From Pantoea vagans (GTDB lineage Bacteria; Pseudomonadota; Gammaproteobacteria; Enterobacterales; Enterobacteriaceae), in contig NZ_CP038853.1 in NCBI RefSeq assembly GCF_004792415.1, forward strand, positions 1,302,001 to 1,366,000: 64,000 nucleotides of DNA, in the 5' to 3' direction. Shown in pieces: positions 15,590-55,344 of the stretch (the stretch's first letter is position 1; every line of letters starts with the position of its first letter). The position numbers and the translations under genes are program-made. The notes below the pieces were generated by a model. That model saw nothing but the letters and a program-made list of their open reading frames with translations, had not been told where the DNA came from and made no database searches.

Positions 15590-15689
15590 GAGAACACGGG
15601 CAGAGGAGGAAAGCGTCCCGCGCCATGGACGGCGCGGGCCGAGCGGCCAGGGAGTGGCATTAGCGTCTTTCCGATCTAACCGTGTTCTC
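15590..15689 (+). repeat. Structured hairpin repeat, copy R1 (subfamily B)
   Basis: The terminal arms GAGAACACGG and CCGTGTTCTC close the element, and an inner stem GGAAAG/CTTTCC continues the closing helix. Inside are two hairpins. The first is CCCGCGCC-ATGGAC-GGCGCGGG (15617-15638). The second is GCC-AGGGAG-TGGC-like (15646-15658). Both loops carry ANGGA and the GGA cores are 21 nt apart. It lies between yejK and the convergent rplY, in the sense orientation of yejK. The outer flanks (GCGCA / TTCGC) extend the pairing. Confidence 0.85.
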
Positions 15690-15738
15690 TTCGCTGGCTC
15701 AATCTTTCAGCAAAGCCGATGCAGACGTTATCAAACCT

Positions 15739-15763
15739 AAGTCGGGTTTAGCCCGACTTTGAT
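15739..15763 (+). terminator. Hairpin after yejK
   Basis: AAGTCGGG/CCCGACTT with a 5-nt loop is followed by only a short T stretch. It is a possible terminator for yejK beyond the repeat element. Confidence 0.45.
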
Positions 15764-15800
15764 TCCCTGCCCACGGCGATGATTTGGCTGGCAGCGACAA

Positions 15801-15839
15801 AATAAAAGGGCCGGTTTCTCAACCGGCCCTTTTATTTTT
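15801..15839 (-). terminator. Bidirectional terminator, rplY/yejK
   Basis: AAAAGGGCCGGTT and AACCGGCCCTTTT form a 13-bp stem with a 4-nt loop. T-rich tracts follow on both strands, so it can end rplY and any rightward read-through. Confidence 0.9.
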
Positions 15840-15854
15840 CAACGTAATTCGCGA

Positions 15855-16139
15855 TTAAGCGCGAACGAAGTCGATGTGGAACAGTTTTGGCTTGAACGGG
15901 TGACGCTGAACAGCCTGAACTTTCACTTTAGTTTCTTTACCGTCAACTGACAGGGTCAGAACTTCGTCGTAGAAACCTGGCTTAGCTTGCAGGTTCATTA
16001 CTGAGTCGTGATCCAGATCGATGGCAACAGCCGCTTCAGAACCACCGTAGATGATGGCCGGGAAACGGTTTGCTGTACGCAGGCGGCGGCTCGCACCCTT
16101 ACCCTGCTCTTTACGTTCTACTGCATTGATAGTGAGCAT
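15855..16139 (-). CDS. rplY: 50S ribosomal protein L25
   Basis: This 94-residue single-domain L25 binds 5S rRNA in the large subunit, exactly the E. coli length and without the C-terminal CTC extension of long forms. It begins [20 protein letters not shown] and ends HIDFVRA, both hallmarks. It has its own strong terminator and convergent neighbour yejK, as in E. coli. Confidence 0.97.
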
Positions 16140-16302
16140 TAATATATCTCTTTATTTAATCCTGCTACAGGCGACCCAGTAACAGGCAGGTTATTCAATC
16201 CCGCTGATGCACATGCAAAAGCGGGCGGCAGTATAGCCGTTATGCCGGGTGGTAGCAAACGATATACCCGCCAGCCGGGTTTCGGATCGCCTGCGTAATC
16301 CA

Positions 16303-18057
16303 TTAACGCAGCTCATTGGCGCGGCGATAGCGACCCTGATAATCGAACATTTTCTCGCGGATCTGCCAGAACTGGCCTTTAGCACGCGCGACGACAAAGT
16401 CGGGATGACGCAGCAGGGGCTGCAACGCCAGCACGTCAGCGGCGGTCTGCCAGCCCAGCGGTACGCCGGGCGCGCGCTGATGCGGGCGCATAAAGAGCTG
16501 TTCAAACGCTTTACGCTGGGCGGGTGTCTGCAGGCGAAACCGTTCGCTGACGCTGGTGCCTTCCTCATCATGATAAGTTGCCTTCAGCCATTCGCCTTTG
16601 GCGTCGCGGCCCTGTTCCAGCGTCATGCCGCCACAGCGCAGCACCAGCGCATCCTTCAGTTTCAGCGCGGCTTTAAGCATATCGTCCGGGTCGACCAGAA
16701 TTTTGTCGCACTGATGACAGCGCCGGGCGGCAATATCATTCTCTGCGCCGCAGTCGGGGCAACTTTTAAAGCGGAAGCGGAAATCACACTGTTCGCGCTC
16801 ACCCTCATCATCTTCCAGCACGCCCTGACAGCGTCGGCCAAAATGCTCAATCACCATGCCATCGGCGGTCGCCTTGCCCCAGAAGGTATTGGCGAAACCG
16901 CAGGCGGGACAGAAAACCTGAACCGGCTGATTGTCGCTCTTACCTTTAGGCGCGCCGACTTCGGGCGTAAAAAGGTCATGCGGGTTACCGGCGTAATCCA
17001 GAATCAGACAGTCGGTTTTACCGGGCGAGAGCCGCAGCCCGCGTCCGACGATCTGCTGGTAGAGGCTCACCGACTCGGTCGGGCGCAGGATCGCAATCAG
17101 ATCCACGTGCGGGGCATCAAAACCGGTAGTCAGCACGGCGACGTTCACCAGGAATTTCAGCTGCTGCGCTTTAAACGCCAGAATCAGGGCATCACGCTCG
17201 CGGGCGGGGGTGTCGGCGGAGACCAGCGCGCTGTTATCGGGCAGCAGCTGCAGAATTTCCCGCGCATGCTCTACCGTTGAGGCGAAAATCATCACCCCCA
17301 GCCGATCTTCAGCGAACTCCACAATCTGCCGGATGATATGGGGCGTTACGCGCTGCTGCTGTTTCAGTTCGCGATTCAGATCGGCTTCGCTGAACAGGCC
17401 GTTAGACTGTGCCGTCAGGCGGCTGAAATCATACTGCACCACCGGCATATCCAGCCGCTCCGGCGGCACCAGGAACTGGTGCTTGATCATATAGCGCAGC
17501 GGCAGCTCATAGATGCAGTCGCGGAACAGCGATTTTTCGTCGCCACGCACCATGCCGTGATAGTGGAACTGATAAATCCAGCCTTTGCCCAGCCGGAACG
17601 GCGTGGCGGTCAGGCCGAGTAAACGGAGCTGAGGATTGTGCTGACGCAGATGGTTGAAGATCTGCTGATACTGGCTTTCTTTATCATCGCCGATGCGGTG
17701 GCACTCATCGACGATCACCAGCGAGAAGGCGCTGTCGAACAGGTCGAGGTTACGTGCCACCGACTGTACGCTGCCAAACACTACTTTGCGCTGGCTCTCT
17801 TTGCGCTGCAGTCCGGCGGCAAAAATATCGGCCTCCAGTCCGTAAGCCTGATATTTGCTGTGGTTCTGTGCCACCAGCTCTTTGACGTGCGCCAGCACCA
17901 GCACCCGGCCACGCGCCAGCCGTGCCAGCTCGGCAATCACCAGACTTTTTCCGGCACCGGTTGGCAGCACAATAACGGCGGGCTCCTGATGGCGACGGAA
18001 ATGCGCCACGGTGGCATTCACCGCATCCTGTTGATAGGGGCGTAAGGTAAAAGACAT
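16303..18057 (-). CDS. radD: Superfamily 2 DNA helicase-like protein RadD (YejH)
   Basis: RadD is an ATPase that cooperates with RecA and SSB in double-strand break and gap repair. The 584-residue protein (E. coli 586) has Walker A LPTGAGKS (31-38), a DECH box, motif III LTATPFR, motif [11 protein letters not shown] and a C-terminal zinc region with CxxC pairs (FCPACGF, SCPDCGA, RCHQCD). I start at [13 protein letters not shown], aligned with E. coli [10 protein letters not shown]; a 34-residue upstream extension is not supported. It is divergent from rsuA. Confidence 0.95.
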
Positions 18058-18212
18058 GTTGCTCACTTTTATAAAACTGGTGGTAATTATGCCATGAAAG
18101 GGCGGTAAACGCGCTGTCAGGCTGGCGCGGATCACGTTATACTTCCCGCACATTTTCAACGGTTAACCAGGCCGTTTCAGATTCCCTCCGCAGTAACAGG
18201 CAAAACGAATTC

Positions 18213-18932
18213 ATGCGACTCGACAAATTCATCTCTCAGCAACTGGAAATCAGCCGCGCTATCGCTCATCGCGAGATCCGTGGTCAGCGTGTCACCGTCA
18301 ACGGTGAAGTGGTACGCGACACCGCGTTTAAACTGCTGCCCGACCACGAAGTCGCCTACGACGGCAACGTGCTGCAGATGCTCACCGGCCCACGCTACTT
18401 TATGCTGAACAAACCGCAGGGCTACGTCTGCTCAACCGACGATCCCGATCATCCGACTATCCTCTATTTCATCGAAGAGCCAATGTCATTCAAACTGCAC
18501 GCGGCAGGGCGTCTCGATATTGACACCACCGGGCTGGTGCTGCTGACAGATGATGGCCAGTGGTCACACCGCATTACCTCGCCACGTCATCACTGCGAGA
18601 AAACCTATCGCGTCACCCTGGAATCGCCGCTCGGTGACGATACGGCCGCGCAGTTTACCGCGGGCGTGCAGCTCCACAATGAGAAGGACCTGACGAAACC
18701 GGCACAGCTGGAGGTGATTACCCCCACAGACGTGCGGCTGACCCTGAGCGAAGGCCGCTATCACCAGGTGAAACGGATGTTTGCCGCCGTCGGTAACCGG
18801 GTCATTGAGCTGCATCGCGAACGTATCGGTGACATTGCGCTGGACGACGATCTGGAACCGGGCGAATACCGGGCGCTGACAGAAGACGAGATCGCCAGTA
18901 TCGGTCTGCCAAAAGAGCTGCAGGCAAAATAA
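18213..18932 (+). CDS. rsuA: 16S rRNA pseudouridine-516 synthase
   Basis: RsuA isomerises U516 of 16S rRNA. The 239-residue protein has an N-terminal S4 RNA-binding domain (about 1-60) and the catalytic motif [10 protein letters not shown] with Asp102, the same position as in E. coli. The C-terminal [16 protein letters not shown] segment is also family-specific. bcr follows 50 nt later, the same order as E. coli. Confidence 0.96.
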
Positions 18933-18981
18933 CCGGGCGGGCCAGGCGGCCCGTACCTGATTCATTTGTGCAGGAGAGGGT

Positions 18982-20178
18982 GTGCGTAAGGAAAAGAATT
19001 CGCCAACAGGACTGGTTGTCATCCTTGGTCTGTTAGCCATGCTGATGCCATTGTCGATCGACATGTATCTGCCTGCGATGCCGCAGATTGCGCGTGAGTT
19101 CGGCGTGTCAGCCGGTAGCGTGCAGATGTCGCTTAACCTCTACATCCTTGGCTTCGCGATTGGCCAGCTTATCTATGGGCCACTGGCAGACAGCTATGGG
19201 CGTAAGCCGGTGATTGCACTCGGCACCCTGATCTTCGCCTGTGCCGCCGCGGCCTGTGCGCTGTCGCAGAGCATCGACCAGCTGATTCTGATGCGCTTCC
19301 TGCACGGGCTGTCGGCTGCCGCTGCCAGTGTGGTGATCAATGCCCTGATGCGTGACAGTTACTCGAAAGAGGACTTCTCGCGCATGATGTCCTTTGTGAT
19401 GCTGATTACCACCATTGCGCCGCTGCTGGCCCCGATTATCGGCGGCTGGTTGCTGGTGCTCTGGAGCTGGCATGCCATCTTCTGGGCACTTGCGGGCGCG
19501 GCACTGGTGACGACCGTGCTGGTCACTACCCAGATCCGCGAAACCCTGAAGCCGGAGCAGCGACAGCGGTTTCACCTGCGCACTACGCTGGGCAATTTCG
19601 TGACGCTGTTCCGCCACAAGCGGGCGTTCAGCTATATGCTGGCGAGCGGCTTCTCCTTTGCCGGACTCTTTACCTTTCTCAATGCCGGCCCCTTCGTTTA
19701 CATCGAGCTGAATCACGTCTCACCGCAAAACTTTGGCTACTACTTTGGCCTTAACGTGGTGTTTCTGTTTCTGCTGACGCTGATTAACAGCCGCGCCGTG
19801 CGCCGCTTTGGTCCGGTGGCGATGTTCCGGCTGGGCCTGCTGATTCAGTTCTGCATGGGGATCTGGCTGCTGCTTGTCAGCGCTTTCAGCCTCGGTTTCC
19901 TGCCGCTGGTGATGGGGATCGCGCTGTTTATCGGCTGCGTGTCGATGGTCTCATCGAATGCGATGGCGGTGATTCTGGATGAGTTCCCGCACATGGCGGG
20001 CACGGCCTCGTCCCTGGCGGGCACGCTGCGTTTTGGCGTCGGCGCGTTTGTGGGGGCGTTGCTGTCGCTGGTGAGTTTTAACAGCGCCTGGCCGATGGTC
20101 GGCACTATCGCACTCTGCGCAACAATCTCTCTGCTGCTCTTTTTCTACGCTTCACGTTCCCGCACTGCGCCCCGTTAA
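18982..20178 (+). CDS. bcr: Bcr/CflA-family multidrug efflux MFS transporter
   Basis: The protein is a proton-driven exporter (bicyclomycin, sulfonamide and dipeptide/cysteine efflux in E. coli). The 398 residues form 12 membrane helices, with [16 protein letters not shown] in the loop between helices 2 and 3 and the conserved [13 protein letters not shown] near the end. The start is GTG with ribosome site CAGGAGAGGG; no nearer ATG fits. Identity to E. coli Bcr is high throughout, and the rsuA-bcr-yejG order is kept. Confidence 0.94.
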
Positions 20179-20291
20179 TCGGGCGCAGTGGTTTCCCCGC
20201 CCTTGTCCGCAGTGATGCACATCTCGCCGGTTTTGTTTCTTACTTGTGAAAACTTTTAGTTAAAAAAGTAACCACAATGCGTCTAAAATGA

Positions 20292-20320
20292 TTGTTAACG
20301 GCGTGTGAACGCGGTACATA
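20292..20320 (+). promoter_or_regulatory. Candidate yejG promoter
   Basis: TTGTTA, a 17-nt spacer and TACATA form a plausible sigma-70 promoter. It implies a leader of about 145 nt before yejG, long for so small a gene. No experimental basis. Confidence 0.35.
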
Positions 20321-20470
20321 TAGGCTGAAGTGCGATGTAAGTCGCAAAAAATGCGCTTCTGCAATCCGCACGGACGGGCCAGCCATCCCTGTCCTGACTC
20401 TGCGGGGATCAACCCGTTTTCAGCCGGGCAGGTCGGTGTTGCGACATAAACTCATCGGGGAGAGTAACCT

Positions 20471-20791
20471 ATGCTGCAACTTTCAATTGTGCATCGTCTG
20501 CCACAGCGTTTTCGCTGGGCCAGCGATCACCACAGTGCCATTGAATCCGATGACACAATGCTGGATGAGCAGGAGTTCGTGGCGTTGCGTCTGATCAGCC
20601 ATGACGGCATTCCGGCGTGGGAGATCCTGCAGCAGCTGAAAGAGGTGCTGGCGGATATTCAGGTCGATTGCAAAGTGGCCGAGTGCGAAGGGCAGCCCTG
20701 CCTGTTTATTCAGCGTCGCGACGAAAGCGCCACTAACTGCTGCCTGAAGAATCAGGGCGTGGCGATTGCGGAAACCTTTATCGCAGGTTGA
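20471..20791 (+). CDS. yejG: Conserved small protein YejG
   Basis: This 106-residue protein of unknown biochemical function (E. coli 114 aa) has a ribosome site GGGGAGAG before the ATG. It begins MLQLSIVHRLPQRFRWA and has a Cys pair near the end (TNCCLKN). It lies between bcr and the convergent yejF, whose 3' end it overlaps by 14 nt. Confidence 0.85.
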   Translation: MLQLSIVHRLPQRFRWASDHHSAIESDDTMLDEQEFVALRLISHDGIPAWEILQQLKEVLADIQVDCKVAECEGQPCLFIQRRDESATNCCLKNQGVAIAETFIAG

Positions 20792-22373
20792 GTTGCGCCG
20801 ACTGCAGCAGCTCGCGGGTATACACAGCCGTCGGTGACGCAAATAACGTTTCACACTCTCCCTGTTCCACTACCTCCCCCTGACGCAGCACAATAAGCTG
20901 GTGACACAGGGCGCGAACCACATCCAGGTCGTGACTGATAAACAGATAACTGAGCTGACGCTGCTGCTGTAAGCGGCGTAACAACGTCAGAATCTGCTTC
21001 TGCACCGTGCGATCCAGCGATGAGGTGGGTTCATCCAGTATCAACAGCTCCGGCTCCAGAATCAGTGCCCGTGCGATAGCAATACGCTGTCGCTGACCGC
21101 CAGAAAATTCGGCCGGATAACGATGCCGGCTTTCCGCTTCTAGTCCTACTTCCTCCATCACCGCAATCACCCGCTGCGCACTGTTGAGTTCGGGCTGATG
21201 CACCGCCAGACCTTCAGCAATGATCTGCTGCACCGTCATACGCGGATTGAGGGAGGAATTGGGATCCTGAAACACCACCTGAATGCGCTGACGCAGCGGC
21301 AGAAGTTGCCGGCGCGACAGCTGATGCAGCGGCTGGCCGTCAAACCAGACGTCGCCACGTGAGGAAATCAGCCGCAACAGCGCCAGGCCGGTGGTGCTTT
21401 TACCCGACCCGGACTCGCCCACCAGGCCCAGACTTTCGCCCCGCCGCAGGCTGAAACTCAGCCCGGAAAGCACCTGCTTTTCGCCGGTCTGCCGCCGGAA
21501 CAGTCCGCGCCGCTGCGCAAAACTGACCTGAAGCTGTTCGACCCGAAGAATGACCGGCGCGTCTGCGGGTAGCGGCAGCGCTTTTCCTTCCGGCTCCGCA
21601 GCCAGCAACTGCTGGCTGTAAGGATGTTGCGGCTGGTTCAGCAGTATCTGGCTGCGATTCTGTTCCACGATGTGACCCTGACGCATCACGCTGACGTTAT
21701 CCGCCAGCTGACGCACGATGTTCAGGTTATGGGTGATAAACAGCATGCCCATATTCAGCTCCCGCTGCAGTTCACGCAGCAGCGCCAGAATCTGCGCCTG
21801 TACCGTCACATCCAGTGCAGTGGTCGGCTCATCGGCAATCAGCAACTGCGGCTCGGTCAGCAGCGCCATGGCGATCATCACCCGCTGGCGTTCTCCGCCG
21901 GAAAGCTGGTGGGGGAAATCGTTGAGCCGGGTAGCGGGCTGACGGATACCGACCCGATCAAGTACGCTGAGAATCTCACCGCGTGCCGCCGGGCGACGCA
22001 GCCCGCGATGCAGCGACAGCACTTCAACCAGCTGTTTCTCCACGGTGTGCAGCGGATTCAGCGATACCATCGGCTCCTGAAAAATCATCGCAATCTGGTT
22101 GCCGCGAATCGCGCGCAGACGCTGTTCGCGGGCGCGCAGCAGATCTTCACCGTTAAACAGAATCTCTCCACGGGGATAAACTACCGCCGCCTCATGCAGC
22201 AGTCGCATCACCGACAGCGCCGTAACGCTCTTCCCGGAACCCGACTCGCCCACCAGCGCCAGCGTTTCGCCCGCGTCAATGCGCAGTGAAACGTCATTCA
22301 CGACCTGGCGAAGCTGCTCGCCCTGACGAAAGGCGACCGAGAGATGATTGATGGCAAGCAGTGGCGTTGTCAT
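20778..22373 (-). CDS. yejF: Peptide ABC importer ATPase YejF
   Basis: YejF holds both ATPase domains of the YejABEF importer, which takes up peptide antibiotics such as microcin C and affects antimicrobial peptide resistance. The 531 residues contain two Dpp/Opp-type ATPase domains, each with Walker A GESGSGKS and signature LSGGERQR or FSGGQRQR. Its ATG directly follows the yejE stop (TGA ATG), with the ribosome site inside yejE. Confidence 0.95.
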
Positions 22374-23396
22374 TCAGGCTCCTTTGCCCGGATCAAAGGC
22401 GTCGCGCACCGCTTCGCCGATAAAAATCAGCAGCGAGAGCAGGATCGCCAGGGTGAAAAAGCCCGCCAGGCCCAGCCAGGGTGCCTGAAGATTATTTTTG
22501 CCCTGCAGCAGTAACTCGCCCAGCGAAGGCGAACCCAGCGGCAGACCAAAGCCCAGGAAGTCGAGGGAGGTGAGCGTGGTAATTGATCCGCACAAAATAA
22601 AGGGCAGAAAGGTCAGGGTAGCCACCATCGCGTTAGGCAGCATGTGACGCAGCATAATCCGGCCATCGCTGACGCCCAGCGCCTGTGCTGCGCGGATGTA
22701 ATCAAAGTTTCGGGTTCGCAAAAACTCGGCCCGGACCACGCTCACCAGGCTCATCCAGCCGAACGCGACGGTGACCAGCAGCAGCCACCAGAAACCGGGC
22801 TGAATGACGCTGGAGAGGAGGATCAACAGAAACAGCGCAGGCATGCCGGACCAGACCTCAATCATCCGCTGCCCGATCAGGTCAATCCTGCCGCCGAAAT
22901 AACCCTGCACCGCACCGACCACAATCCCGATGACGCTGGAGATAAGTGTCAGCAGTACGCCGAACAGCAGGGAGATGCGCGTGCCATAGAGCAGACGAGC
23001 CAGTACGTCGCCGCCGTTGGCGTCCGTGCCGAGCCAGTTCTGCGCAGAGGGCGGAGAGGGGAACGGTACCTCGGTGGCAAAATTGATGGTGCTGTCGCTG
23101 AAGCGAATCGGAGCCCATAAAGCCCAGCCGTTCTGCGCAATGCGCTGCCGCAGCCAGGGATCCTGATAATCCGCCGCTGTCGCCAGTACGCCGCCATAGT
23201 CGGTTTCGCTGTAGTCAAACAGCAGCGGCACCGTCCAGCGCTGCTGGTAATGCACCAGCAGCGGCTTGTCATTGGCGATCAGTTCAGCACACAGCGACAG
23301 CAGGAAAATGACCAGAAAGATCCACAGTGACCAGTAGCCGCGCCGGTTATGGCGAAAGCGCTGCCAGCGCTGTTGATTCAGCGGAGAGAGCGTCAT
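22374..23396 (-). CDS. yejE: Peptide ABC importer permease YejE
   Basis: This 340-residue inner membrane permease of the YejABEF system has six or so helices. A DppC-like N-terminal segment ([20 protein letters not shown]) precedes the EAA loop region around [21 protein letters not shown]. It overlaps yejB by 4 nt and abuts yejF, so the four genes form one coupled operon in the order yejA-B-E-F. Confidence 0.95.
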
Positions 23397-24487: not shown

Positions 24488-24498
24488 CGGTCATCTCC

Positions 24499-26307: not shown

Positions 26308-26351
26308 GTTCTCTCCTGTTAAATGTCCGGCGCGATTCGGGCCAGAGAGTC

Positions 26352-28100: not shown

Positions 28101-28136
28101 CATGTTCTCTGGCTGAGAGAAGATCGAAGGTGATAA

Positions 28137-36115: not shown

Positions 36116-36146
36116 CAGGGAGCCGGATGGCTCCCTGTTTGCTTTT
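36116..36146 (+). terminator. Terminator of fruBKA
   Basis: CAGGGAGCC-GGAT-GGCTCCCTG is a 9-bp stem with a tetraloop followed by TTTGCTTTT. Its arms share the 8-mer AGGGAGCC with the nfo terminator 180 nt away. Confidence 0.85.
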
Positions 36147-36173
36147 ACAGACGGCTCTCGAAATTAAAGCGAT

Positions 36174-36275
36174 GGGAGCATACGCCTGGAGTAAAGCATC
36201 GCGGGCCAGGGATGGCCCGCGTTGAGCCTGCCAGGGATGGCGTTTATTGCGTCTTTACGGAAGGCGTATGCTCCC
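36174..36275 (+). repeat. Structured hairpin repeat, copy R2 (subfamily A)
   Basis: Arms GGGAGCATACGCC and GGCGTATGCTCCC close the element, continued by GTAAAG/CTTTAC. The internal hairpins are GCGGGCC-AGGGAT-GGCCCGC and GCC-AGGGAT-GGC, with GGA cores 22 nt apart. It lies between the convergent fruA and nfo, in fruA sense, between two terminators. In E. coli this junction holds several kilobases of nucleoside and pseudouridine genes. Confidence 0.87.
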
Positions 36276-36298
36276 TGAGCCAGCGTTCGATCTAAACG

Positions 36299-36326
36299 AA
36301 AAGGGAGCCAACTGGCTCCCTTTTTC
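36299..36326. terminator. Bidirectional terminator, nfo side
   Basis: AAGGGAGCC-AACT-GGCTCCCTT with A-run before and T-run after can stop transcription from both sides. It touches the nfo stop codon. Confidence 0.85.
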
Positions 36327-41219: not shown

Positions 41220-41288
41220 TTCTGTGCGCTGACTCGTGCGCACGGTGCCTGCCGCAGTTCTGGCAGGCCGCAGGAATCGTGAAGCGAT

Positions 41289-41390
41289 GGGAGCCTGTGC
41301 CTGTAGCAAAGCATAGCGGGCCAGGGATGGTCCGCGCTGAGCCCGCCAGGGATGGCGGGTTTTGCGTCTTTGCGAAAGGCGCAGGCTCCC
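41289..41390 (+). repeat. Structured hairpin repeat, copy R3 (subfamily A)
   Basis: Arms GGGAGCCTGTGCC and GGCGCAGGCTCCC pair with one G-U, continued by GCAAAG/CTTTGC. Hairpin 1 is GCGGGCC-AGGGAT-GGTCCGC, with one G-U. Hairpin 2 is CCCGCC-AGGGAT-GGCGGG. GGA cores are 22 nt apart. It lies downstream of lysP in the same sense. Both wobble pairs would be A-C mismatches if the other strand were the functional one. Confidence 0.88.
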
Positions 41391-41456
41391 TGAGCCATTC
41401 TCCCGTCTGCAACACCGGTTTTTACCCTTTTTTCACGTCTCGCTTATCTTCACGAA

Positions 41457-43390: not shown

Positions 43391-43441
43391 GAATCGGGCA
43401 GGCCTGGCCTAGAGCCAGCGTTTGCGGCAGTAGAGCTTGCA

Positions 43442-43470: not shown

Positions 43471-43476
43471 GATGAT

Positions 43477-44319: not shown

Positions 44320-44331
44320 AACGCCTCCTGA

Positions 44332-45510
<1,179 letters not shown>

Positions 45511-45530
45511 TTAAACATAGCGTGAAACGC

Positions 45531-46442: not shown

Positions 46443-46559
46443 ATCTTCTCTTCCCGTAAACAAGTTGGTTAATATTATTCACTTTCCGTGAGTTTAATCA
46501 TCCTGCATGCTGTTAGCAAGTCAGAAGAGATCTCAGGGCAGAACAACAGGAGTTCAGCA

Positions 46560-47687
46560 ATGGCGTTACGCGTCGCGCTCAGCGCGTTTTTAACCTTATT
46601 TGTAGCGATGGGCATTGGGCGATTCGCCTTTACGCCGCAGGTGCCGCTGATGATTCAGGCGCACCAGCTGACGCTCACGAGTGCCAGCCTGGTCGCGGCG
46701 CTCAACTATCTTGGCTATCTGTGTGGCTCGTTTGATGCCATGCGCGCGCACCGGCGTGTCGAGCTGCGTTTGCAGGCGGGCGTGTGGGGCGCAGTGATCC
46801 TGACGCTGCTCTCTGCACTGGCGACCGGACCGTGGCTGCACGGTGCGATTCGCTTTCTGATTGGCTGGGCCAGTGGCTGTGCGATGGTGCTGGTGGCGGC
46901 CTGGAGTAACGAACAGTTGCATCGGCATGGCCGGGCAGGGCTGTCGGCGGCCGTCTTTGCCGGGCCGGGCTGCGGCATTTTTGTCAGCGGTCTGCTGGGA
47001 GTGGCGCTGCACACATGGCAGGTCTCCGCCGGTCTGGCCTGGGCCGCTTACGGTGCGCTGGCACTGCTGCTGATTGCGCTGATTACGCGTAACCTGCCGC
47101 GTCGGGGCGAACTGCATCGCCCGGATCAGGCACCGGAGCCGCTGGTGCTGGATCGCAACCTGAAACGTCTGGTGCTGAGTTACAGTCTGGCGGGCTTTGG
47201 TTATATCCTGCCCGCCACCTTTTTGTCGCAGATGGCCGCTACGCGTTTTCCTGACGGTATCTTCGCGCAGTTTGTCTGGCCGGTATTTGGCGGCGCGGCG
47301 ATGATTGGCATCGTGCTGGGGATCCTGACACGGCGCTGGGGGCACAGTCACGTCCGTCTGGCGATAGTACTCTGGGCACAGGCACTGGGCGTTTTTGCTG
47401 CGGCACTGCTGCCAGGCTTTAGTGGTCTGCTGGCCGGGGCGCTGCTGGTGGGCGGCGGCTTCCTCAGCGTGGTGCAGCTCTCGCTGCTCTGCGCCCGTGA
47501 ACTGGCGCCCAACCATCTGCGATACATGGCTGGCCTGCTGACCACCGGCTACGCGGTGGGTCAGCTGGTCGGTCCGCTGCTCTCTTTTCTCTCTACTGCC
47601 CTGTTACACCGGCTGGAGCCTGCCCTGTGGGTGGCCGGGGCCAGCCTTGTCTGGGCGGGCCTGCTGGTCTGGCGAAGAAGTGAGTGA
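46560..47687 (+). CDS. YbfB/YjiJ-family MFS transporter
   Basis: This 375-residue membrane protein has about 12 helices. The N-terminal MGIGRFAFTPQVPLMIQ and ALNYLGYLCGSFDA motifs define the YbfB/YjiJ MFS family, whose substrates are mostly unknown. The ATG at 46560 follows CAGGAG; an upstream frame from 46488 lacks a ribosome site. It is divergent from the LysR gene, which may control it. E. coli has no gene here between yeiG and folE. Confidence 0.87.
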   Translation: MALRVALSAFLTLFVAMGIGRFAFTPQVPLMIQAHQLTLTSASLVAALNYLGYLCGSFDAMRAHRRVELRLQAGVWGAVILTLLSALATGPWLHGAIRFLIGWASGCAMVLVAAWSNEQLHRHGRAGLSAAVFAGPGCGIFVSGLLGVALHTWQVSAGLAWAAYGALALLLIALITRNLPRRGELHRPDQAPEPLVLDRNLKRLVLSYSLAGFGYILPATFLSQMAATRFPDGIFAQFVWPVFGGAAMIGIVLGILTRRWGHSHVRLAIVLWAQALGVFAAALLPGFSGLLAGALLVGGGFLSVVQLSLLCARELAPNHLRYMAGLLTTGYAVGQLVGPLLSFLSTALLHRLEPALWVAGASLVWAGLLVWRRSE

Positions 47688-47811
47688 AAAGCTTTCATCA
47701 CCAATCTGATTGATTGCTGGATTCCCCGCAAAGAAAGTTTCACAATACGCGCCTGATTACAGGGCCCGCAGGCAAAAGCTTGCGGGCGCAACACCAGCCG
47801 GAGAAGAGTAG

Positions 47812-48477
47812 ATGAGCACCCTAAGTCAGGAAGCTGCCCTGGTTCACGAAGCGCTGCTGGCGCGTGGACTGGAAACGCCGTTACGTGCACCGACGCGCGA
47901 CATAGATAAAGAGACGCGTAAGAGCCTGATTGCCGGGCACATGACGGAAATCATGCAGCTGCTGAATCTGGATCTTGAAGATGACAGCCTGATGGAAACG
48001 CCGCATCGCATCGCCAAAATGTATGTGGATGAGGTTTTTTCCGGTCTCGATTACGCCAACTTCCCGAAAATCACCGTCATTGAGAATAAAATGAAGGTTG
48101 ATGAGATGGTGACCGTGCGTGATATCACCCTGACCAGCACCTGTGAACACCACTTTGTGATCATCGATGGCAAAGCCACGGTCGCCTATATTCCCAAGGA
48201 AAAGGTGATTGGCCTGTCGAAAATCAACCGCATCGTGCAGTTCTTCGCCCAGCGCCCGCAGGTGCAGGAGCGTCTGACGCAGCAGGTGCTGGTTGCCCTG
48301 CAGACGCTGCTGGGCACCAATAATGTGGCGGTCTCGATTGATGCAGTGCATTACTGTGTGAAAGCGCGTGGCGTAAAAGATGCCACCAGCGCCACTACCA
48401 CGACATCTCTGGGCGGCCTGTTCAAGTCCAGTCAGAATACCCGCCAGGAATTTTTGCGCGCGGTACGCCATAGTTGA
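47812..48477 (+). CDS. folE: GTP cyclohydrolase I
   Basis: FolE makes dihydroneopterin triphosphate from GTP, the first step of folate synthesis. The 221-residue protein (E. coli 222) has the zinc ligand site STCEHHFV, the active-site [24 protein letters not shown] and the [13 protein letters not shown] motif near the C terminus. Ribosome site GGAGAAGAG. yeiB follows 50 nt later as in E. coli. A 7-bp GCCCGCA/TGCGGGC hairpin lies in the leader (about 47765-47788). Confidence 0.96.
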
Positions 48478-48527
48478 GTTAACGGCGGGCACATGATGTT
48501 GCCCGCGTCGTCAATGCAGGGTGCCGC

Positions 48528-49691
48528 ATGCAACAACGCTATCACGCGCTGGATTTCATTCGTGGATGTGCCATTCTCGGCATCCTGCTGCTCAATATTG
48601 TCGGCTTCGGCCTGCCTTCTGCTGCTTACCTGAACCCGGCCTGGCAGGGCAGCGTTAGCCTCTCCGATGTCTGGACCTGGGCACTCTCTGACGTCTTTGC
48701 TCAGCTCAAATTCCTCACCCTGTTTGCACTGCTGTTTGGCGCAGGTCTGCAAATGCAGCTGCCGCGCGGCAGTCGCTGGCTGACTGCCCGGCTTTCCATT
48801 CTGGTACTCATCGGTTTTCTGCATGGTGTCTTTCTCTGGGAGGGCGACATCCTGCTGGACTACGGCATCATCGGGCTGGTGGTCTGGCGGGTGCTGCGTG
48901 ATGTGCCTTCAACCCGCAGCCTGATGAATACCGGTATTCTGCTCTATCTGGTGGGCTGCGGCGTGCTGCTGGTGTTTGGGTCGATCTCCGATCCCGAACC
49001 GACGCGATCCTGGCTGCCGGGCGCAGCCGATCTGCAATATGAGCAGTACTGGAAGCTGAGCGGCGGCTGGGAAGCGATACAGAACCGGCTGGACCATCTC
49101 TCGTCAGGGCTGATGGCGCTGGCGGCGCAGTATGGCTGGCAGCTGGCGGGCTTAATGATGATCGGTGGCGCACTGCTGCGCAGCGGCTGGCTGACAGGGG
49201 AGTTTCCCCTCCGGCACTATCGTCAGGCGGCGGCCCTGCTGCTGACAATGGGCTTCTCCATTGCGGTGGCCGGTGTGGCAGCGCAATGGCTGTTACATTG
49301 GGAATTCCGCTGGACGGCTTTTTACCTGCAGGCTCCGCGCGATCTCGCCAGCCCGCTGATTAGCCTGGGCTATGCCGCGCTCTGCCTGGCGTACTGGCCG
49401 CTGATCTCGCGCTGGCGCATCAGCTACGCCATCCAGTGCGTGGGCCGTATGGCGCTGACTAACTATCTGCTGCAAACGCTTATCTGTACCACGCTGTTCT
49501 ATCGCTTTGGCTTCTATATGCACTTCACCCGGCTGGAACTGGTGATGATGGTGCCTGCGGTGTGGCTCATCAATATCCTGTTTTCACTCATCTGGTTACA
49601 TTTTTTCTCCCAGGGTCCGCTGGAATGGCTGTGGCGGCGGCTTACGCTGCTCTCAGCCGGCAAATCACGCATTACCGACAACGCCAGATAA
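48528..49691 (+). CDS. yeiB: DUF418 membrane protein YeiB
   Basis: This 387-residue protein (E. coli 385) has about ten helices and a C-terminal DUF418 domain; function is unknown. The N terminus RYHALDFIRGCAILGILLLNI is the family signature. It is cotranscribable with folE and precedes galS as in E. coli. Confidence 0.92.
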   Translation: MQQRYHALDFIRGCAILGILLLNIVGFGLPSAAYLNPAWQGSVSLSDVWTWALSDVFAQLKFLTLFALLFGAGLQMQLPRGSRWLTARLSILVLIGFLHGVFLWEGDILLDYGIIGLVVWRVLRDVPSTRSLMNTGILLYLVGCGVLLVFGSISDPEPTRSWLPGAADLQYEQYWKLSGGWEAIQNRLDHLSSGLMALAAQYGWQLAGLMMIGGALLRSGWLTGEFPLRHYRQAAALLLTMGFSIAVAGVAAQWLLHWEFRWTAFYLQAPRDLASPLISLGYAALCLAYWPLISRWRISYAIQCVGRMALTNYLLQTLICTTLFYRFGFYMHFTRLELVMMVPAVWLINILFSLIWLHFFSQGPLEWLWRRLTLLSAGKSRITDNAR

Positions 49692-49721
49692 TGACCGCCA
49701 TCACAAAGGTTACAGAATTGT

Positions 49722-49737
49722 ATGTAACCGTTTTCAT
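49722..49737. promoter_or_regulatory. GalS/GalR operator upstream of galS
   Basis: ATGTAACCGTTTTCAT fits the GalR/GalS consensus GTGTAANCGNTTACAC. It lies just before a CRP site in the galS promoter, consistent with autoregulation. Confidence 0.8.
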
Positions 49738-49740
49738 TGA

Positions 49741-49756
49741 TGTGACGCAATTCACG
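49741..49756. promoter_or_regulatory. CRP site of galS
   Basis: TGTGACGCAATTCACG matches TGTGA-N6-TCACA with one mismatch. Its centre lies about 41.5 nt before the predicted start downstream of a CAGAAT -10 (49778-49783), a class II geometry. Confidence 0.75.
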
Positions 49757-49838
49757 CTGTACGCCTCCTGCCCCTGACAGAATAGCGCCGGTGTTCAACC
49801 CGGCGTGATGCCCTATTTTTCCTTTCTGGAACTGCTGC

Positions 49839-50879
49839 ATGATAACTATTCGTGATGTTGCCCGTCAGGCTGGCGTGTCAGTGGCGACCGTGTCGCGCGT
49901 TCTCAATCAGAGCAACGCCGTGACCTCTGACACCCGCGACGCCGTGTTGCAGGCGGTTGAGGCGCTGGGCTATCGCCCCAACGCCAACGCCCAGGCGCTG
50001 GCGACGCAGGTCAGCGATACGATCGGGGTGGTGGTGATGGATGTCTCAGATCCCTTCTTCGGGGCGCTGGTTAAAGCAGTGGATACCGTGGCGCAGCGCG
50101 TGCACAAGCATGTGTTAATCAGCAACTCCTGGCATCAGGAAGAGAAAGAGCGTCATGCTATCGAGGTGCTGATCCGGCAGCGCTGCAGCGCCCTGGTGGT
50201 TCACGCGAAAACGCTGCCGGACGCGGAGCTAGCGGACTTTATGCAGCACGTGCCTGGCATGGTGGTGATTAACCGCATCGTCCCAGGATTCGAACACCGC
50301 AGCGTCAGTCTGGATAACGTCACCGGGGCGCTGATGGCCTCAAGAACCCTGTTGCAACAGGGGCATAGCCGCATTGGCTATCTCTGCTCCAGCCATCCCA
50401 TCGAGGATGTCGCGCAGCGCCGTGAAGGGTGGATGCAGGCGATGGCAGAGCAGGGCATCCGGCCGCAGGAGAGCTGGATTGCCAGCGCAGAGCCAGATAT
50501 GCAGGGGGGCGAAGCGGCGATGGTGGAGCTGCTGGGGCGTAACCTCAACCTGACTGCGGTGTTTGCCTATAACGACGGCATGGCAGCTGGTGCCCTCACT
50601 GCGCTGAAAGACAACGGCATCCAGGTGCCACAGCATTTTTCTGTCATTGGCTTTGATGACATTCCGATTTCACGGTACACCGATCCGCAGTTAACCACTG
50701 TGCGCTATCCCATTGTATCTATGGCAAAAATCGCCACTGAGCTGGCACTGCAGGGTGCAGCGGGACTGCTTGATGACACCGCAACTCACATCTTTATGCC
50801 AACCCTGGTGCGGCGTCATTCGGTGGCGCAGCGGCAAAATGTGGAGTCCGTCACTAATTCAGGGGATTCAGGCATGTAA
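49839..50879 (+). CDS. galS: mgl regulon repressor GalS
   Basis: GalS is the galactose isorepressor controlling mglBAC and itself. The 346-residue LacI-family protein (E. coli 346) begins [23 protein letters not shown], an HTH plus hinge, and has a periplasmic-binding-like sugar domain with FGALVKAVD and the [19 protein letters not shown] signature. An operator for it overlaps its own stop codon and belongs to the mgl promoter. Confidence 0.95.
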
Positions 50880-50889
50880 CCGTTTTCAA
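50874..50889. promoter_or_regulatory. GalS/GalR operator of mglBAC
   Basis: ATGTAACCGTTTTCAA differs by one base from the galS operator at 49722 and includes the galS stop codon. Its centre is 18 bp upstream of the mgl CRP-site centre. Confidence 0.8.
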
Positions 50890-50891
50890 TC

Positions 50892-50934
50892 TGTGATTGT
50901 ATTCACAGTTAATTAACATTGCCCTCACTATGAT
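50892..50934 (+). promoter_or_regulatory. mglBAC promoter with CRP site
   Basis: TGTGATTGTATTCACA (50892-50907) is a perfect CRP palindrome. TATGAT at 50929-50934 is a good -10. If transcription starts near 50941, the CRP site is centred at -41.5. The predicted leader is about 250 nt long and holds no other gene. Confidence 0.85.
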
Positions 50935-51188
50935 GGCAGCGTCTTACCGGACTGAAACATTATGTAACGCCAGTGTAACGGCATCAGTTGTGGTCTCAGT
51001 AGCCGGTTAAAGGGTTTAACCCCTCTTCATGGAAGCGTTGTGGCACAGGGAAGTCAGGTTTTAGACGGCGTTTAACGGCTTAACATCTTCATTATGTTAG
51101 CCAGCGCGCCGATCTGTTTTACCGATTGCGCTCCCGCACGCTTGGCGGAAGCGCTAAAAAGACCCTGCATAATAAAACCGGAGATACC

Positions 51189-52184
51189 ATGAATAAGAAG
51201 GTTTTCACGCTTACAGCACTGGTTGCCAGCATGATGTTTGGTGCAACCGCTCACGCAGCTGACACCCGTATCGGCGTGACCATTTACAAATATGATGACA
51301 ACTTCATGTCAATGGTGCGCAAAGACATCGAGAAAGAAGCGAAAGCGATCGGTGGCGTACAGCTGCTGATGAATGACTCGCAGAACGACCAGTCCAAACA
51401 GAACGATCAGGTTGACGTGCTGATGGCAAAAGGCGTGAAAGCGCTGGCGATTAACCTGGTTGACCCGGCTGCCGCTGCCGTCATCGTAGACAAAGCGCGT
51501 GCCAACGAAGTGCCGGTTGTCTTCTTCAACAAAGAACCCAACGCCAAAGTGCTTGCCGGTTATGACAAAGCTTACTATGTCGGCACCGACTCCAAAGAGT
51601 CTGGCATCATTCAGGGTCAGCTGATCGAGAAGCACTGGAAAGCGACTCCAGCCTGGGATCTGAACAAAGATGGCACCATTCAGTTCGTCCTGCTGAAAGG
51701 CGAGCCGGGCCATCCGGATGCTGAAGCCCGTACTAAATATGTCATCGACACGCTGAACAAAGATGGTCTGAAGACGCAGCAGTTAGCGATGGATACGGCG
51801 ATGTGGGACACCGCACAGGCCAAAGATAAGATGGATGCGTGGCTGTCAGGCCCGAACGCCAAGAAAATTGAAGTCGTGATTGCCAACAACGATGCGATGG
51901 CGATGGGTGCCGTTGAAGCGCTGAAAGCGCACAACATGACCTCCATTCCGGTCTTCGGTGTCGATGCCCTGCCTGAAGCGCTGGCGCTGGTGAAATCCGG
52001 TGCGCTGGCTGGTACCGTGCTGAACGATGCGGAAAACCAGGCGAAAGCGACGCTGGATATTGCCAACAACCTGGCGAACGGCAAAGCGGCAACCGACGGA
52101 ACGAACTTCAAGATGGTCGATAAGATCGTCCGCGTTCCTTACGTTCCGGTTGATAAAGAAAATCTGTCTCAGTTCTCGAAATAA
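51189..52184 (+). CDS. mglB: Galactose/glucose-binding periplasmic protein
   Basis: MglB binds beta-D-galactose and glucose for transport and Trg-dependent chemotaxis. The 331-residue protein (E. coli 332) has signal peptide residues 1-23 (ending AHA before ADTRIGVT), the calcium loop DLNKDGTIQ and sugar contacts such as [14 protein letters not shown] and FGVDALPEA. The ATG at 51189 follows GAGATACC. A terminator-like hairpin after it probably reduces transcription into mglA. Confidence 0.97.
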
Positions 52185-52195
52185 GATTGATTACG

Positions 52196-52221
52196 GGCGC
52201 GACCGCTGTCGCGCCTTTTTT
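52196..52221 (+). terminator. Attenuating hairpin between mglB and mglA
   Basis: GGCGCGAC-CGCT-GTCGCGCC is followed by six T. Inside the operon it should give partial termination and stabilise mglB mRNA, which fits the need for excess binding protein. Confidence 0.85.
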
Positions 52222-52252
52222 ATGTCACCACCGTTTTTTAGCCAGGTAAAAT

Positions 52253-53773
52253 ATGGCCAGTGATAACACGACCGCGCAGCGAGAATATTTGCTGGAAATG
52301 ACGAATGTTTCAAAATCATTTCCCGGCGTAAAAGCGTTAGATAATGTGAATTTAAAAGTGCGGCCTCACTCTGTTCATGCATTAATGGGCGAGAACGGTG
52401 CCGGGAAATCCACCTTATTAAAATGCCTGTTTGGTATTTATAAAAAAGATACCGGCAGTATCCTGTTTCAGGGTAAAGAGATCGACTATAAAAGCTCCAA
52501 AGAGGCGCTGGAAAATGGCGTGTCGATGGTGCATCAGGAATTAAACCTGGTTCTGCAGCGTACCGTGATGGACAACATGTGGCTGGGGCGTTATCCGCGC
52601 AAAGGCTTCTTTGTCGATCAGGATAAAATGTACCAGGATACCAAAGCGATTTTTGACGAGCTGGATATCGATATCGATCCGCGCGACAAAGTTGCCAATC
52701 TCTCTGTATCACAGATGCAGATGATTGAAATTGCCAAAGCGTTCTCCTACGACGCGAAAATTGTGATTATGGATGAGCCGACTTCTTCGTTAACCGAAAA
52801 AGAGGTGAATCACCTGTTCACGATTATTCGTAAGCTGAAAGATCGCGGCTGCGGTATTGTTTATATTTCGCACAAGATGGAAGAGATTTTCCAGCTGTGT
52901 GATGAGATCACGATTCTGCGTGATGGTCAGTGGATTACCTCTCAGCCGCTGGAAGGGCTGGATATGGATAAGATCATCGCCATGATGGTCGGCCGTTCAC
53001 TGAACCAGCGTTTCCCTGACCGTACCAACGTGCCAGGCGAGACGATTCTTGAGGTGCGTAATCTGACGTCACTGCGTCAGCCATCGATTCGCGACATCTC
53101 ATTTGATCTGCGTAAAGGGGAGATACTCGGCATTGCCGGGCTGGTGGGCGCTAAACGTACCGATATCGTCGAAACGCTGTTTGGCATTCGCGAGAAATCG
53201 GGCGGCACCATTAAACTGCATGGCAAACCGATTAATAATCACAGCGCCAATGAAGCGATTAACCACGGTTTTGCGCTGGTGACTGAAGAGCGTCGTTCGA
53301 CTGGTATTTATGCTTACCTGGATATTGGTTTTAACTCACTTATTTCCAATATTAAAAAATATAAAAACAGTATGGGACTGCTGGATAATAAACGCATGAA
53401 GAGTGACACCCAATGGGTTATCGATTCAATGCGCGTAAAAACGCCAGGTCATCATACACAAATTGGTTCGCTTTCGGGCGGTAACCAGCAAAAAGTGATT
53501 ATTGGCCGCTGGTTATTGACCCAGCCTGAAATCCTGATGCTTGATGAACCAACTCGCGGTATTGATGTTGGTGCGAAATTCGAAATTTACCAGCTGATTG
53601 CTGAGCTGGCGAAAAGAGAAAAGGGCATCATTATTATCTCCTCCGAAATGCCGGAGCTGTTAGGCATTACCGATCGTATTCTGGTAATGAGTAATGGTCT
53701 GGTAGCAGGCATAGTTGATACCAAAACGACCACGCAGAACGAAATATTGCGTTTAGCGTCATTACACCTTTAA
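52253..53773 (+). CDS. mglA: Galactose ABC importer ATPase MglA
   Basis: This 506-residue (E. coli 506) fused double ATPase has Walker [10 protein letters not shown] in domain 1 and the degenerate GLVGAKRTD in domain 2, which is normal for MglA. Signatures are LSVSQMQM and LSGGNQQK, with DEPT Walker B motifs in both halves. It sits between mglB and mglC with 20 nt before mglC. Confidence 0.96.
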
Positions 53774-53792
53774 TGAAGCAAGGGCTGTTAAC

Positions 53793-54803
53793 ATGAAAGC
53801 GACTACAAAAAAGAATGCGCTAACCTGGTTAAAAGAGGGCGGCATTTATGTCGTTCTGCTGGTATTGCTGGCTATTATTATTTTCCAGGACCCGACATTT
53901 TTAAGTTTGATGAACCTGAGTAATATTCTGACCCAATCTTCGGTGCGCATTATTATTGCACTGGGTGTGGCGGGTCTGATTGTGACCCAGGGTACTGACC
54001 TGTCAGCCGGACGTCAGGTTGGCTTAGCGGCGGTCGTTGCCGCAACGCTGTTGCAGGCGATGGATAACGCGAACAAGGTCTTCCCGACACTGGATACCGT
54101 GCCGATTCCACTGGTTATCCTGACCGTGTGCATCATCGGCGGTGTGATTGGTCTGGTCAACGGTGTGATTATTGCTTACCTGAAGGTAACGCCGTTTATC
54201 ACCACGCTGGGCACCATGATTATCGTTTATGGTATCAACTCACTGTATTACGACTTTGTGGGTGCCTCACCGATTGCCGGTTTTGATGCAGGGTTCTCGA
54301 AATTTACCCAGGGCTTCTTACGCTTTGGTGATTTTAAACTCTCGTTCATCACTTTCTACGCCGTGATTGCCATTATTTTCGTCTGGGTGCTGTGGAACAA
54401 AACCCGCTTCGGCAAAAACATTTTTGCTATCGGCGGTAACCCTGAAGCGGCGAAAGTGTCAGGCGTGAACGTTCCGATGAACCTGATCATGATTTATGCC
54501 CTGTCAGGTGTGTTCTACGCCTTCGGCGGGATGCTGGAAGCGGGTCGTATCGGTTCGGCGACTAACAACCTCGGCTTTATGTATGAGCTGGATGCCATTG
54601 CGGCCTGTGTGGTCGGCGGCGTCTCCTTCGCCGGTGGTGTGGGTAGCGTGGCGGGCGTCGTGACCGGTGTACTCATCTTCACCGTTATCAACTACGGTCT
54701 GACCTATATCGGCGTTAACCCTTACTGGCAGTACATCATTAAAGGCGGCATCATCATTTTCGCCGTTGCGCTGGATTCTCTGAAATATTCTCGTAAGAAG
54801 TAA
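53793..54803 (+). CDS. mglC: Galactose ABC importer permease MglC
   Basis: This 336-residue inner membrane permease (E. coli 336) of the RbsC family has about ten helices; GVNPYWQYIIKGGIIIFAVALDSLKY is the conserved C-terminal segment. It ends the operon, with a strong terminator 22 nt after the stop. E. coli yeiT, yeiA and yeiS, downstream there, are missing and replaced by repeats R4-R6. Confidence 0.96.
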   Translation: MKATTKKNALTWLKEGGIYVVLLVLLAIIIFQDPTFLSLMNLSNILTQSSVRIIIALGVAGLIVTQGTDLSAGRQVGLAAVVAATLLQAMDNANKVFPTLDTVPIPLVILTVCIIGGVIGLVNGVIIAYLKVTPFITTLGTMIIVYGINSLYYDFVGASPIAGFDAGFSKFTQGFLRFGDFKLSFITFYAVIAIIFVWVLWNKTRFGKNIFAIGGNPEAAKVSGVNVPMNLIMIYALSGVFYAFGGMLEAGRIGSATNNLGFMYELDAIAACVVGGVSFAGGVGSVAGVVTGVLIFTVINYGLTYIGVNPYWQYIIKGGIIIFAVALDSLKYSRKK

Positions 54804-54824
54804 GACTGATTCAACGCTAAGGAA

Positions 54825-54847
54825 GCGACCTTCGGGTCGCTTTTTTT
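54825..54847 (+). terminator. Terminator of mglBAC
   Basis: GCGACC-TTCG-GGTCGC with a UUCG tetraloop is followed by seven T. Confidence 0.93.
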
Positions 54848-55078
54848 ATGGGGGTAATGCTGGGGTCGTCGCTTTAAGATGGAGTATGCGAAGGGAACAC
54901 GGTCAGATTGGAAAGACGCAAAATCTGTTATCCGTTACATGCCCGGCCTATAACATCCTTAGCGTAGGGAGCTTTTAATGGGGTAAGTGCTGGAGTTGCT
55001 GCTTTGATACGGAGTATGCGAAGGGAACACGGTCAGATCGGAAAGACGCAAAAGCCGCCATCCATGGCACGCTCGGCC
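54848..55078. repeat. 130-bp direct duplication
   Basis: About 100 bp starting near 54848 recurs 130 bp later (for example 54881 GGAGTATGCGAAGGGAACAC equals 55011 GGAGTATGCGAAGGGAACAC), diverged in the first part and after the GACGCAAAA block. It duplicates one arm of a subfamily B repeat and its flank. Confidence 0.75.
54893..54945 (-). repeat. Degraded structured repeat, copy R4 (subfamily B)
   Basis: Only the 3' arm (minus strand TTTTGCGTCTTTCCAATC, then TGACCGTGTTCCC) and a decayed second hairpin remain. The remaining loop still contains ACGGA. The first hairpin and the partner arm are not recognisable. Confidence 0.65.
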
Positions 55079-55125
55079 CGCGCCGTCCCTGGCGCGGGAC
55101 GCTTTCCTCTTCTGACCATGTTCCC
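55023..55125 (-). repeat. Structured hairpin repeat, copy R5 (subfamily B)
   Basis: On the minus strand, arms GGGAACATGGTCAGA and TCTGACCGTGTTCCC make 15 continuous pairs with one G-U, then GGAAAG/CTTTCC. Hairpin 1 is CCCGCGCC-AGGGAC-GGCGCGGG and hairpin 2 is GCC-ATGGAT-GGC, with GGA cores 22 nt apart. The orientation is sense for sanA transcripts running leftward. Confidence 0.87.
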
Positions 55126-55242
55126 TGCGCTTCAGGCTTATTTAATGCTGTTAGATTCGCCCTGATTCAGACTTATAAGCTGTCTGCTTGAAGATCGCAG
55201 CGGAGTGGCCTTCTGTCAAACGGCGACAAAACTTAAAGCGAT

Positions 55243-55344
55243 GGGAGCATACGCCTGTAGCAAAGCATCGCGGGCCATGGATGGCCCGCGCTGAGCATGC
55301 CAGGGATGGCATCTTTTGCGTCTTTGCGAAAGGCGTATGCTCCC
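55243..55344 (+). repeat. Structured hairpin repeat, copy R6 (subfamily A)
   Basis: Arms GGGAGCATACGCC and GGCGTATGCTCCC pair perfectly, then GCAAAG/CTTTGC. Hairpins are GCGGGCC-ATGGAT-GGCCCGC and ATGCC-AGGGAT-GGCAT, with GGA cores 22 nt apart. It is very similar to R2 and lies between mglC and sanA in mglC sense. Confidence 0.88.

Follow-up and report, generated by a model that had tools for sequence, protein, structure and literature searches.

Why should a repeated intergenic element hold the same few letters in two hairpin loops while the stems around them change? This question is raised by a 64,000-nt stretch of the Pantoea vagans genome (NZ_CP038853.1, positions 1,302,001 to 1,366,000; hereafter the window), which contains five intact copies of an element with two side-by-side hairpins, P2 and P3, each carrying ANGGA in its loop. 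The elements are Pantoea representatives of YPAL/RU-2, a miniature mobile family already known from Yersinia. Judging from comparative sequence evidence, we consider it likely that a single CsrA/RsmA dimer docks on the two loops together and that this site is maintained by selection during the spread of the element. The copies in the window are as follows.

15588..15691, plus strand: element copy c1, type B with a short P3; P2 loop ATGGAC at 15625-15630, P3 loop AGGGA from 15649.
36172..36277, plus strand: element copy c2, type A, between convergent genes; loop AGGGAT in P2 (36208-36213) and again in P3 (36233-36238); a terminator-like palindrome GGGAGCC...GGCTCCC on each side (36116-36137 and 36303-36320).
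41287..41392, plus strand: element copy c3, type A, in sense orientation downstream of a lysP homologue; AGGGAT in each loop (P2 41323-41328, P3 41348-41353).
54912..54975, minus strand: truncated sixth copy (model positions 22-85, E 0.0025), with the P3 side, including ACGGA and the GCGTCTTT tail, retained and the P2 side missing.
55021..55127, minus strand: element copy c4, type B; P2 loop AGGGAC at 55090-55085, P3 loop ATGGAT at 55065-55060.
55241..55346, plus strand: element copy c5, type A; P2 loop ATGGAT at 55277-55282, P3 loop AGGGAT at 55302-55307.

The last three share one gap between convergent genes (54912-55346), with two intact copies in opposite orientations beside the truncated one, so that this gap is an apparent insertion hot spot. 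Separately, a match to the L25 ribosomal protein leader (RF03131, 45.5 bits) was found at 16161-16186 on the minus strand, near the gene downstream of c1.

All five intact copies that the sequence-only reading had proposed were found at their places. When folded on the ANGGA strand they gave z values of -6.0 to -8.2, and for none of them did any of 200 shuffles fold as well; folding of the reverse strand was comparable (z -6.4 to -8.6), because the element is a palindrome. The described plan of closing stem, P2 and P3 was recovered, with the addition of an inner stem, GNAAAG/CTTTNC, between the closing stem and the hairpins that had been overlooked. All ten loops do contain A-G-GGA or A-T-GGA as claimed, and the statement that they are mostly AGGGAT proved generous, the exact hexaloop being present in five. 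The reported distance between GGA cores, 22 nt in four copies and 21 nt in the fifth, agrees with our distances of 25 nt (four of five) and 24 nt (one of five) between ANGGA starts. A model (R1), built from four window copies with c1 held out, recovered c1 at E 1.4e-15. Plain chance as the origin of the loops was rejected by counting hexaloop hairpins with Watson-Crick stems of at least 5 pairs on both strands of the window: ANGGAN occurs in 6 of 14 such hairpins inside the elements and in 0 of 208 outside them. With G-U pairs allowed and stems of at least 4, the window has 15 ANGGAN hairpins, 9 within elements and 6 elsewhere.

The same element is abundant in the rest of the genome. The R1 search gave 91 matches, some of them antisense matches to the same copies, and 58 matches stood at E 1e-12 or better after the places had been fetched. 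These comprise 49 copies of standard length, 7 long copies with a hairpin insert in P2, one three-hairpin copy and one single-hairpin copy. With a second model, 14 long copies were scored over their full length, and 2 more from the first-model matches bring the long copies to 16; the second model also found 7 copies of a shorter type C, for a total of about 74 copies. The inserts of the roughly 16 long copies (L072, L081-L098) are rich in hairpins and in most cases displayed include an extra AGGGA or ATGGA hairpin. One locus (L079, G000:C1:1272511-1273204) holds four minus-strand type-C elements in tandem, repeated every 198 bp; both ANGGA loops are kept in three of them, and the fourth has ACCGA in P2.

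The loop letters were then compared in the 49 standard-length rows, leaving aside the 7 long, the one triple and the one single-hairpin copy. The A, G, G and A of both loops are invariant wherever a letter is present, 7 of the 49 P2 loops being short of one G. The N, in contrast to these fixed letters, is free: G30 T14 C3 A2 in P2 and T26 G21 C2 in P3. Since models R1 and R2 (the latter used for the wider search described below) contain ANGGA themselves, we also searched genome contigs with a loop-blind pattern made only of letters outside the loops. It returned at least 120 stretches, with 98 distinct cores among the matches listed, from Yersinia, Pantoea, Rahnella, Erwinia and Enterobacter. 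Among these listed matches, P2 has ANGGAN in 80 of 98 cores and the 5-nt form AGGAC in 7 more, and the parsed P3 loop has ANGGA in 81 of 98. In a genome of another family (G059), the closing, inner and both hairpin stems differ from the Pantoea sequences nearly throughout; retained are the ANGGA of both loops, the linker GAGC and a GCG ahead of the inner stem's 3' strand. Of its 16 loop-blind P3 loops, 15 read ANGGA, every base being represented at N, and one reads AAGAA. Across 38 R2-found copies from 24 loci in six families, that of P. vagans included, ANGGA is present in 37 P2 and 36 P3 loops. One Rahnella inusitata locus (L155) has ATGAAT and AGGAAT, in which the second G of the GGA core is A in both loops.

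Such constancy might be trivial. The elements could be mobile repeats of the ordinary kind, with no function beyond that of a stable 3'-end hairpin or terminator, and with loops that are alike by inheritance from recent copies. Their siting at gene 3' ends and their very stable folds agree with this, as does the published view, in the YPAL passage of a review (PMC2229807), that YPAL is expressed jointly with upstream genes ("co-translated" in the wording there) and might affect transcript stability. We examined this with a tree of diverged copies (110 of 113 rows, 3 having been left out because of their length), built with the loop columns excluded and with changes counted by parsimony. The P2 loop showed A0 N45 G1 G1 A1 N29 changes and the P3 loop A1 N39 G0 G1 A1 N18, so that 6 changes fall in the eight A-G-G-A columns together, 84 in the two N columns and 47 in the two sixth positions; stem columns averaged 12.6 changes and other unpaired columns 10.5. 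The N columns, with 45 and 39 changes, are the two most variable of 107 (the next has 32), and they are flanked by some of the least variable. Recent homogeneous copying is rejected by these counts, because it cannot explain loops in which N is the most variable position while A-GGA is frozen. Together with the recurrence of these loops in families that share hardly any stem sequence, this makes the ordinary-repeat explanation highly improbable. Free variation of the loops, which the sequence-only reading had named as evidence against itself, was not seen; only N and the sixth position vary.

The family to which the elements belong was recognised from their ends and inner plan. The majority consensus of 38 type-B copies of the P. 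vagans genome with their flanks has the 5' end TTCAGACTGCTGACAAA and a 3' end near TTTGTCAA, less conserved than the 5' end; both termini are shared with RU-2 as given in PMC2759123, a comparison made by eye and without a score. The 5' end of type A merely resembles that of RU-2 (CAGACNGC). The RU-2/YPAL repeat is described in a passage of Delihas 2007 (PMC2759123) as 168 nt long with two ANGGAT hairpins in its core, and the YPAL passage of the review (PMC2229807) gives duplications of the target, 3 to 26 bp long, at dyad symmetries or next to them. The Pantoea elements share with YPAL/RU-2 the two-loop inner plan, the internal inverted repeats, the intergenic siting and insertion at dyad symmetry with duplications. 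They differ in that their closing stems have other sequences (types A, B and the shorter C), in the hairpin insert carried by about 16 copies, and in length, about 187 bp being inserted at one plasmid empty site (L062) against 168 bp. This membership had been missed by the sequence-only reading, whose CsrA-type interpretation otherwise gained strong comparative support; the roles it suggested for the elements, as sponges or 3'-UTR stability signals, are conjectural.

Two Rfam families are close to the element. The small RNA Ysr224 (RF02770) is the same repeat, but its model reads the opposite strand and treats it as an sRNA gene rather than a mobile element: two Yersinia copies scored 133.9 and 94 bits and one Rahnella copy 71.5 bits against a gathering cut-off of 70, which the two window copies scanned did not reach (33 and 24.8 bits). 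Ysr224 is ranked among the most frequent bacterial sRNAs in a passage of PMC9029176, and the part of a Yersinia ruckeri biofilm study that concerns it (PMC12112432) reports transcripts from several Ysr224 copies, with the strand unstated there. TwoAYGGAY (RF01731) likewise has an adjacent pair of hairpins with AYGGAY loops under a closing stem; unlike it, the Pantoea element takes any base at N and is a high-copy mobile repeat, and membership was rejected for the two window copies scanned (25.2 and 20.8 bits, under the cut-off of 43). The TwoAYGGAY hairpin pair was earlier proposed as a CsrA binder in a passage of PMC4333381, and the Rfam clan listing puts TwoAYGGAY and RsmY together. As an aside, two sub-threshold matches to the Vibrio antisense RNA V_AS5 (39.2 and 23.4 bits) lie in a Yersinia proxima locus (L121) and are possibly a related repeat.

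In which molecule are the loops constrained? Among 31 diverse copies, whose alignment was fitted to the structure so that the covariation figures lean towards it, 97.0% of the pair cells hold a standard pair, both partners vary in 28 of the 31 pairs, and covariation is 0.756, compared with 0.205 after shuffling and 0.09-0.14 with slid partners. On the ANGGA strand, G-U pairs outnumber A-C mismatches by 61 to 6 in the P. vagans genome (21 of the 61 from one P3 pair), by 42 to 6 in the diverse set and by 51 to 5 at other loci; on the tree, 82 events lead from Watson-Crick to G-U and 14 from Watson-Crick to A-C. Mutation bias is insufficient to account for this excess, for the rates at unpaired positions are nearly alike (C to T, 43 per 871 C; G to A, 58 per 1633 G). 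Because G-U pairs of the ANGGA strand are mismatches on the other strand, the constrained molecule is single-stranded and is the ANGGA strand. It is likely RNA.

An RNA fold could matter for another reason, namely recognition of the loops by an RNA-binding protein other than CsrA, or by the ribosome with GGA as a Shine-Dalgarno mimic. The constraint does look RNA-level and one-stranded, and the fixed unpaired letters outside the loops (GAGC in the linker, GCG ahead of the inner stem's 3' strand) hint that more than CsrA may be bound. A Shine-Dalgarno mimic would, however, favour A or G at N, where T is frequent and C occurs, and, to our knowledge, CsrA/RsmA is the only protein specific for paired hairpin-loop ANGGA about 24 nt apart. 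We therefore regard another ligand as unlikely.

For CsrA/RsmA itself the fit is close. In the passages of a review on this protein family (PMC7652899), RsmE contacts the A and the GGA of an ANGGAN hexaloop with N variable, two sites can be bridged by one CsrA dimer when 10 to 63 nt separate them, best at more than 18 nt, and the CsrB repeat motif is CAGGA(U/A/C)G. The elements agree with this in having ANGGA in hairpin loops with N free, and in having two such sites on one RNA within the published 10-63 nt: with pairs sought within 16-34 nt, 100 of 110 copies gave one, with start-to-start distances of 22-28 nt in all 100 and 23-25 nt in 98. The 5-nt loop variant reads CAGGACG, which matches the CsrB motif. 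A csrA gene is present in 10 of 10 carrier genomes tested, and a CsrB-like RNA match in 7 of 7, above cut-off in four of them including P. vagans. Repeated GGA hairpin loops are a feature that the elements share with CsrB/CsrC and RsmX/Y/Z; these are single genes with many sites each, whereas the Pantoea elements are many dispersed copies with two sites each.

The location of the copies shows how they come to stand at gene ends. With genes called by a simple codon model, 42 of the 58 copies in P. vagans lie between convergent genes, 12 downstream in sense, 4 antisense and none between divergent genes. The corresponding numbers are 37, 13, 18 and 2 for 70 copies on Yersinia contigs (14 more skipped), 37, 2, 2 and 0 for 41 copies on other Pantoea-group contigs (3 skipped), and 8, 4, 3 and 1 for 16 copies in G059. 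Convergent regions make up 25% (Yersinia) and 23% (Pantoea-group) of the intergenic regions above 50 bp in the same stretches. This 3'-end siting follows from insertion at terminators. In 8 of the 58 copies, the left and right flanks carry the same terminator-like palindrome, with a likeness above that of every one of 300 unrelated flank pairs; this is target duplication at dyad symmetry as in YPAL. At one plasmid locus (L062), P. vagans C9-1 has a clean empty site where the present genome is about 187 bp longer, the element sitting between stop codon and terminator; there is no clear duplication, yet the site adjoins the terminator palindrome. The empty sites at two further plasmid loci (L071 and L115) were unreadable, the regions having diverged. 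On the P. vagans plasmids with the locus orthologous to L115 (H172 and H173), an oxidoreductase gene and fumA lie under the match, and a RelE/ParE toxin gene and a helix-turn-helix gene are annotated.

Insertion is also polymorphic at the lysP 3' site, where seven aligned relatives (L403, which gave no alignment, and L404 excluded) hold the element in different states. These include the same two-hairpin copy, two long copies and one element in opposite orientation, so that the element occurs in relatives both with and without the long-copy insert; the remaining states are reduced ones, taken up below. Resident copies thus decay, and the constraint on the loops is best understood as one on lineages still in the course of spreading: selection seems to act on the spreading element.

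How widely the element has spread was asked with model R2. Of 394 genomes of the order, 77 contain a match at E 1e-5, and these represent ten families and 20 of 114 genera; stricter filters were used and nine candidates scored per genome, so that per-genome counts are lower bounds. Within the genus, R1 matched 27 of 35 relatives, with 0 to 53 matches per relative. A query of two window copies matched 48 plasmid records, all from Pantoea. Phage records gave no match to one 326-base query, which leaves a phage origin without support. Elsewhere, a 141-nt stretch over an element of family f6 shares 81.6% identity with five conjugative plasmids (H212-H216) from Providencia, Enterobacter, Citrobacter and E. 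coli.

This mobility suggests another reader of the loops, namely a mobilising enzyme that would recognise them as folded DNA, in the style of IS200/IS605 or REP/RAYT and unrelated to CsrA. Movement is evident from the empty site and the flank duplications, and single-strand transposition would be expected to leave folding on one strand and loops kept only in moving copies. The Y1 transposase domain (PF01797), however, is missing from the P. vagans genome (G000) and from eight high-copy relatives (G007, G009, G015, G016, G020, G027, G031 and G033). It was found in 9 of 38 genomes searched, seven of which have at most 12 element matches, the exceptions being G025 (41 element matches, two partial hits) and G273. 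Reverse transcriptase (PF00078) is missing from several high-copy genomes as well, and mobilisation by Y1/RAYT or by a resident reverse transcriptase was rejected on these absences. We know of no habit of target-palindrome duplication among Y1 enzymes, and a free N within a fixed A-GGA is the known pattern of CsrA. Some enzyme other than Y1 may read the loops; overall, we consider reading as DNA improbable.

Several observations weigh against CsrA docking. Among the listed loop-blind matches, 11 of 98 P2 and 17 of 98 P3 parses show neither loop form; part of these are failed parses, and others, ATAAAT or ATGAAT for example, are genuine losses. Because ANGGA is built into models R1 and R2, and both score G-U over A-C, the sets found with them lean towards these two features; the loop-blind searches made no use of the loops. 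The reduced states at the lysP site comprise one relative without P2, one of the long copies with a broken P3 loop (AAAGA), one with the 3' hairpin part only and one with closing stems only, and congener counts ranging from 0 to 53 imply that the host does not need the element. The sense bias of P. vagans, 12 against 4, was not replicated in the three other sets (19 against 23), and with no general sense bias we dropped sense orientation as proof of a 3'-UTR function. The sRNA annotated for this family, Ysr224, has its model on the strand opposite to ANGGA. The P2 stems, of about 8 mostly G-C pairs, are stabler than those of most SELEX-selected CsrA ligands (ligand passages of PMC7652899), and an upstream copy of the terminator may keep transcripts out of the element.

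On balance, the comparative evidence supports an RNA-level, CsrA-type dimer site that would be kept by selection during element spread. As we picture it, elements of the YPAL/RU-2 type settle at rho-independent terminators or next to them, most often where convergent genes meet, and would be copied into RNA in one orientation, for example as the extended 3' end of a neighbouring transcript. The RNA would fold into the closing stem, the inner stem and two side-by-side ANGGA hairpins about 24 nt apart, one CsrA/RsmA dimer would dock on both loops, and selection would retain this docking site during spread. We infer that the docking protein is CsrA and that element RNA is made in Pantoea. The effect would presumably be that element RNA is protected or tethered, and that the more than 100 loops per genome draw CsrA from other targets.

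We found no role for the YPAL loops, in CsrA binding or otherwise, in the open-access literature searched, which lacked De Gregorio 2006 itself: the YPAL passages of PMC2229807, PMC2759123, PMC2267715, PMC2847712 and PMC3733652 make no statement on CsrA, and the relevant parts of PMC9788540, PMC2864571, PMC5193452 and PMC4383904 hold nothing for or against such a link. Relative to this literature, that a known mobile family carries a predicted CsrA-docking RNA is a new and well-supported proposal.

If the loops are indeed a CsrA dimer site, the repeat family would add to the Csr network a layer that is scattered over the genome: P. vagans has about 74 copies, compared with one CsrB containing 20 GGA. 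It would also be unusual for a miniature transposon to have, as its conserved cargo, a site bound by a global regulator of the host. More tentatively, and as a possibility we would not yet favour over its negation, an abundant enterobacterial mobile class may spread as CsrA-docking RNA with a dimer site in each intact copy, so that bursts of copying add tens of CsrA sites to host 3' ends, rewiring or titrating the Csr system while CsrA protects the element RNA. The analysis suggests that the supposedly idle YPAL-type repeats are candidate docking sites for the global regulator CsrA.

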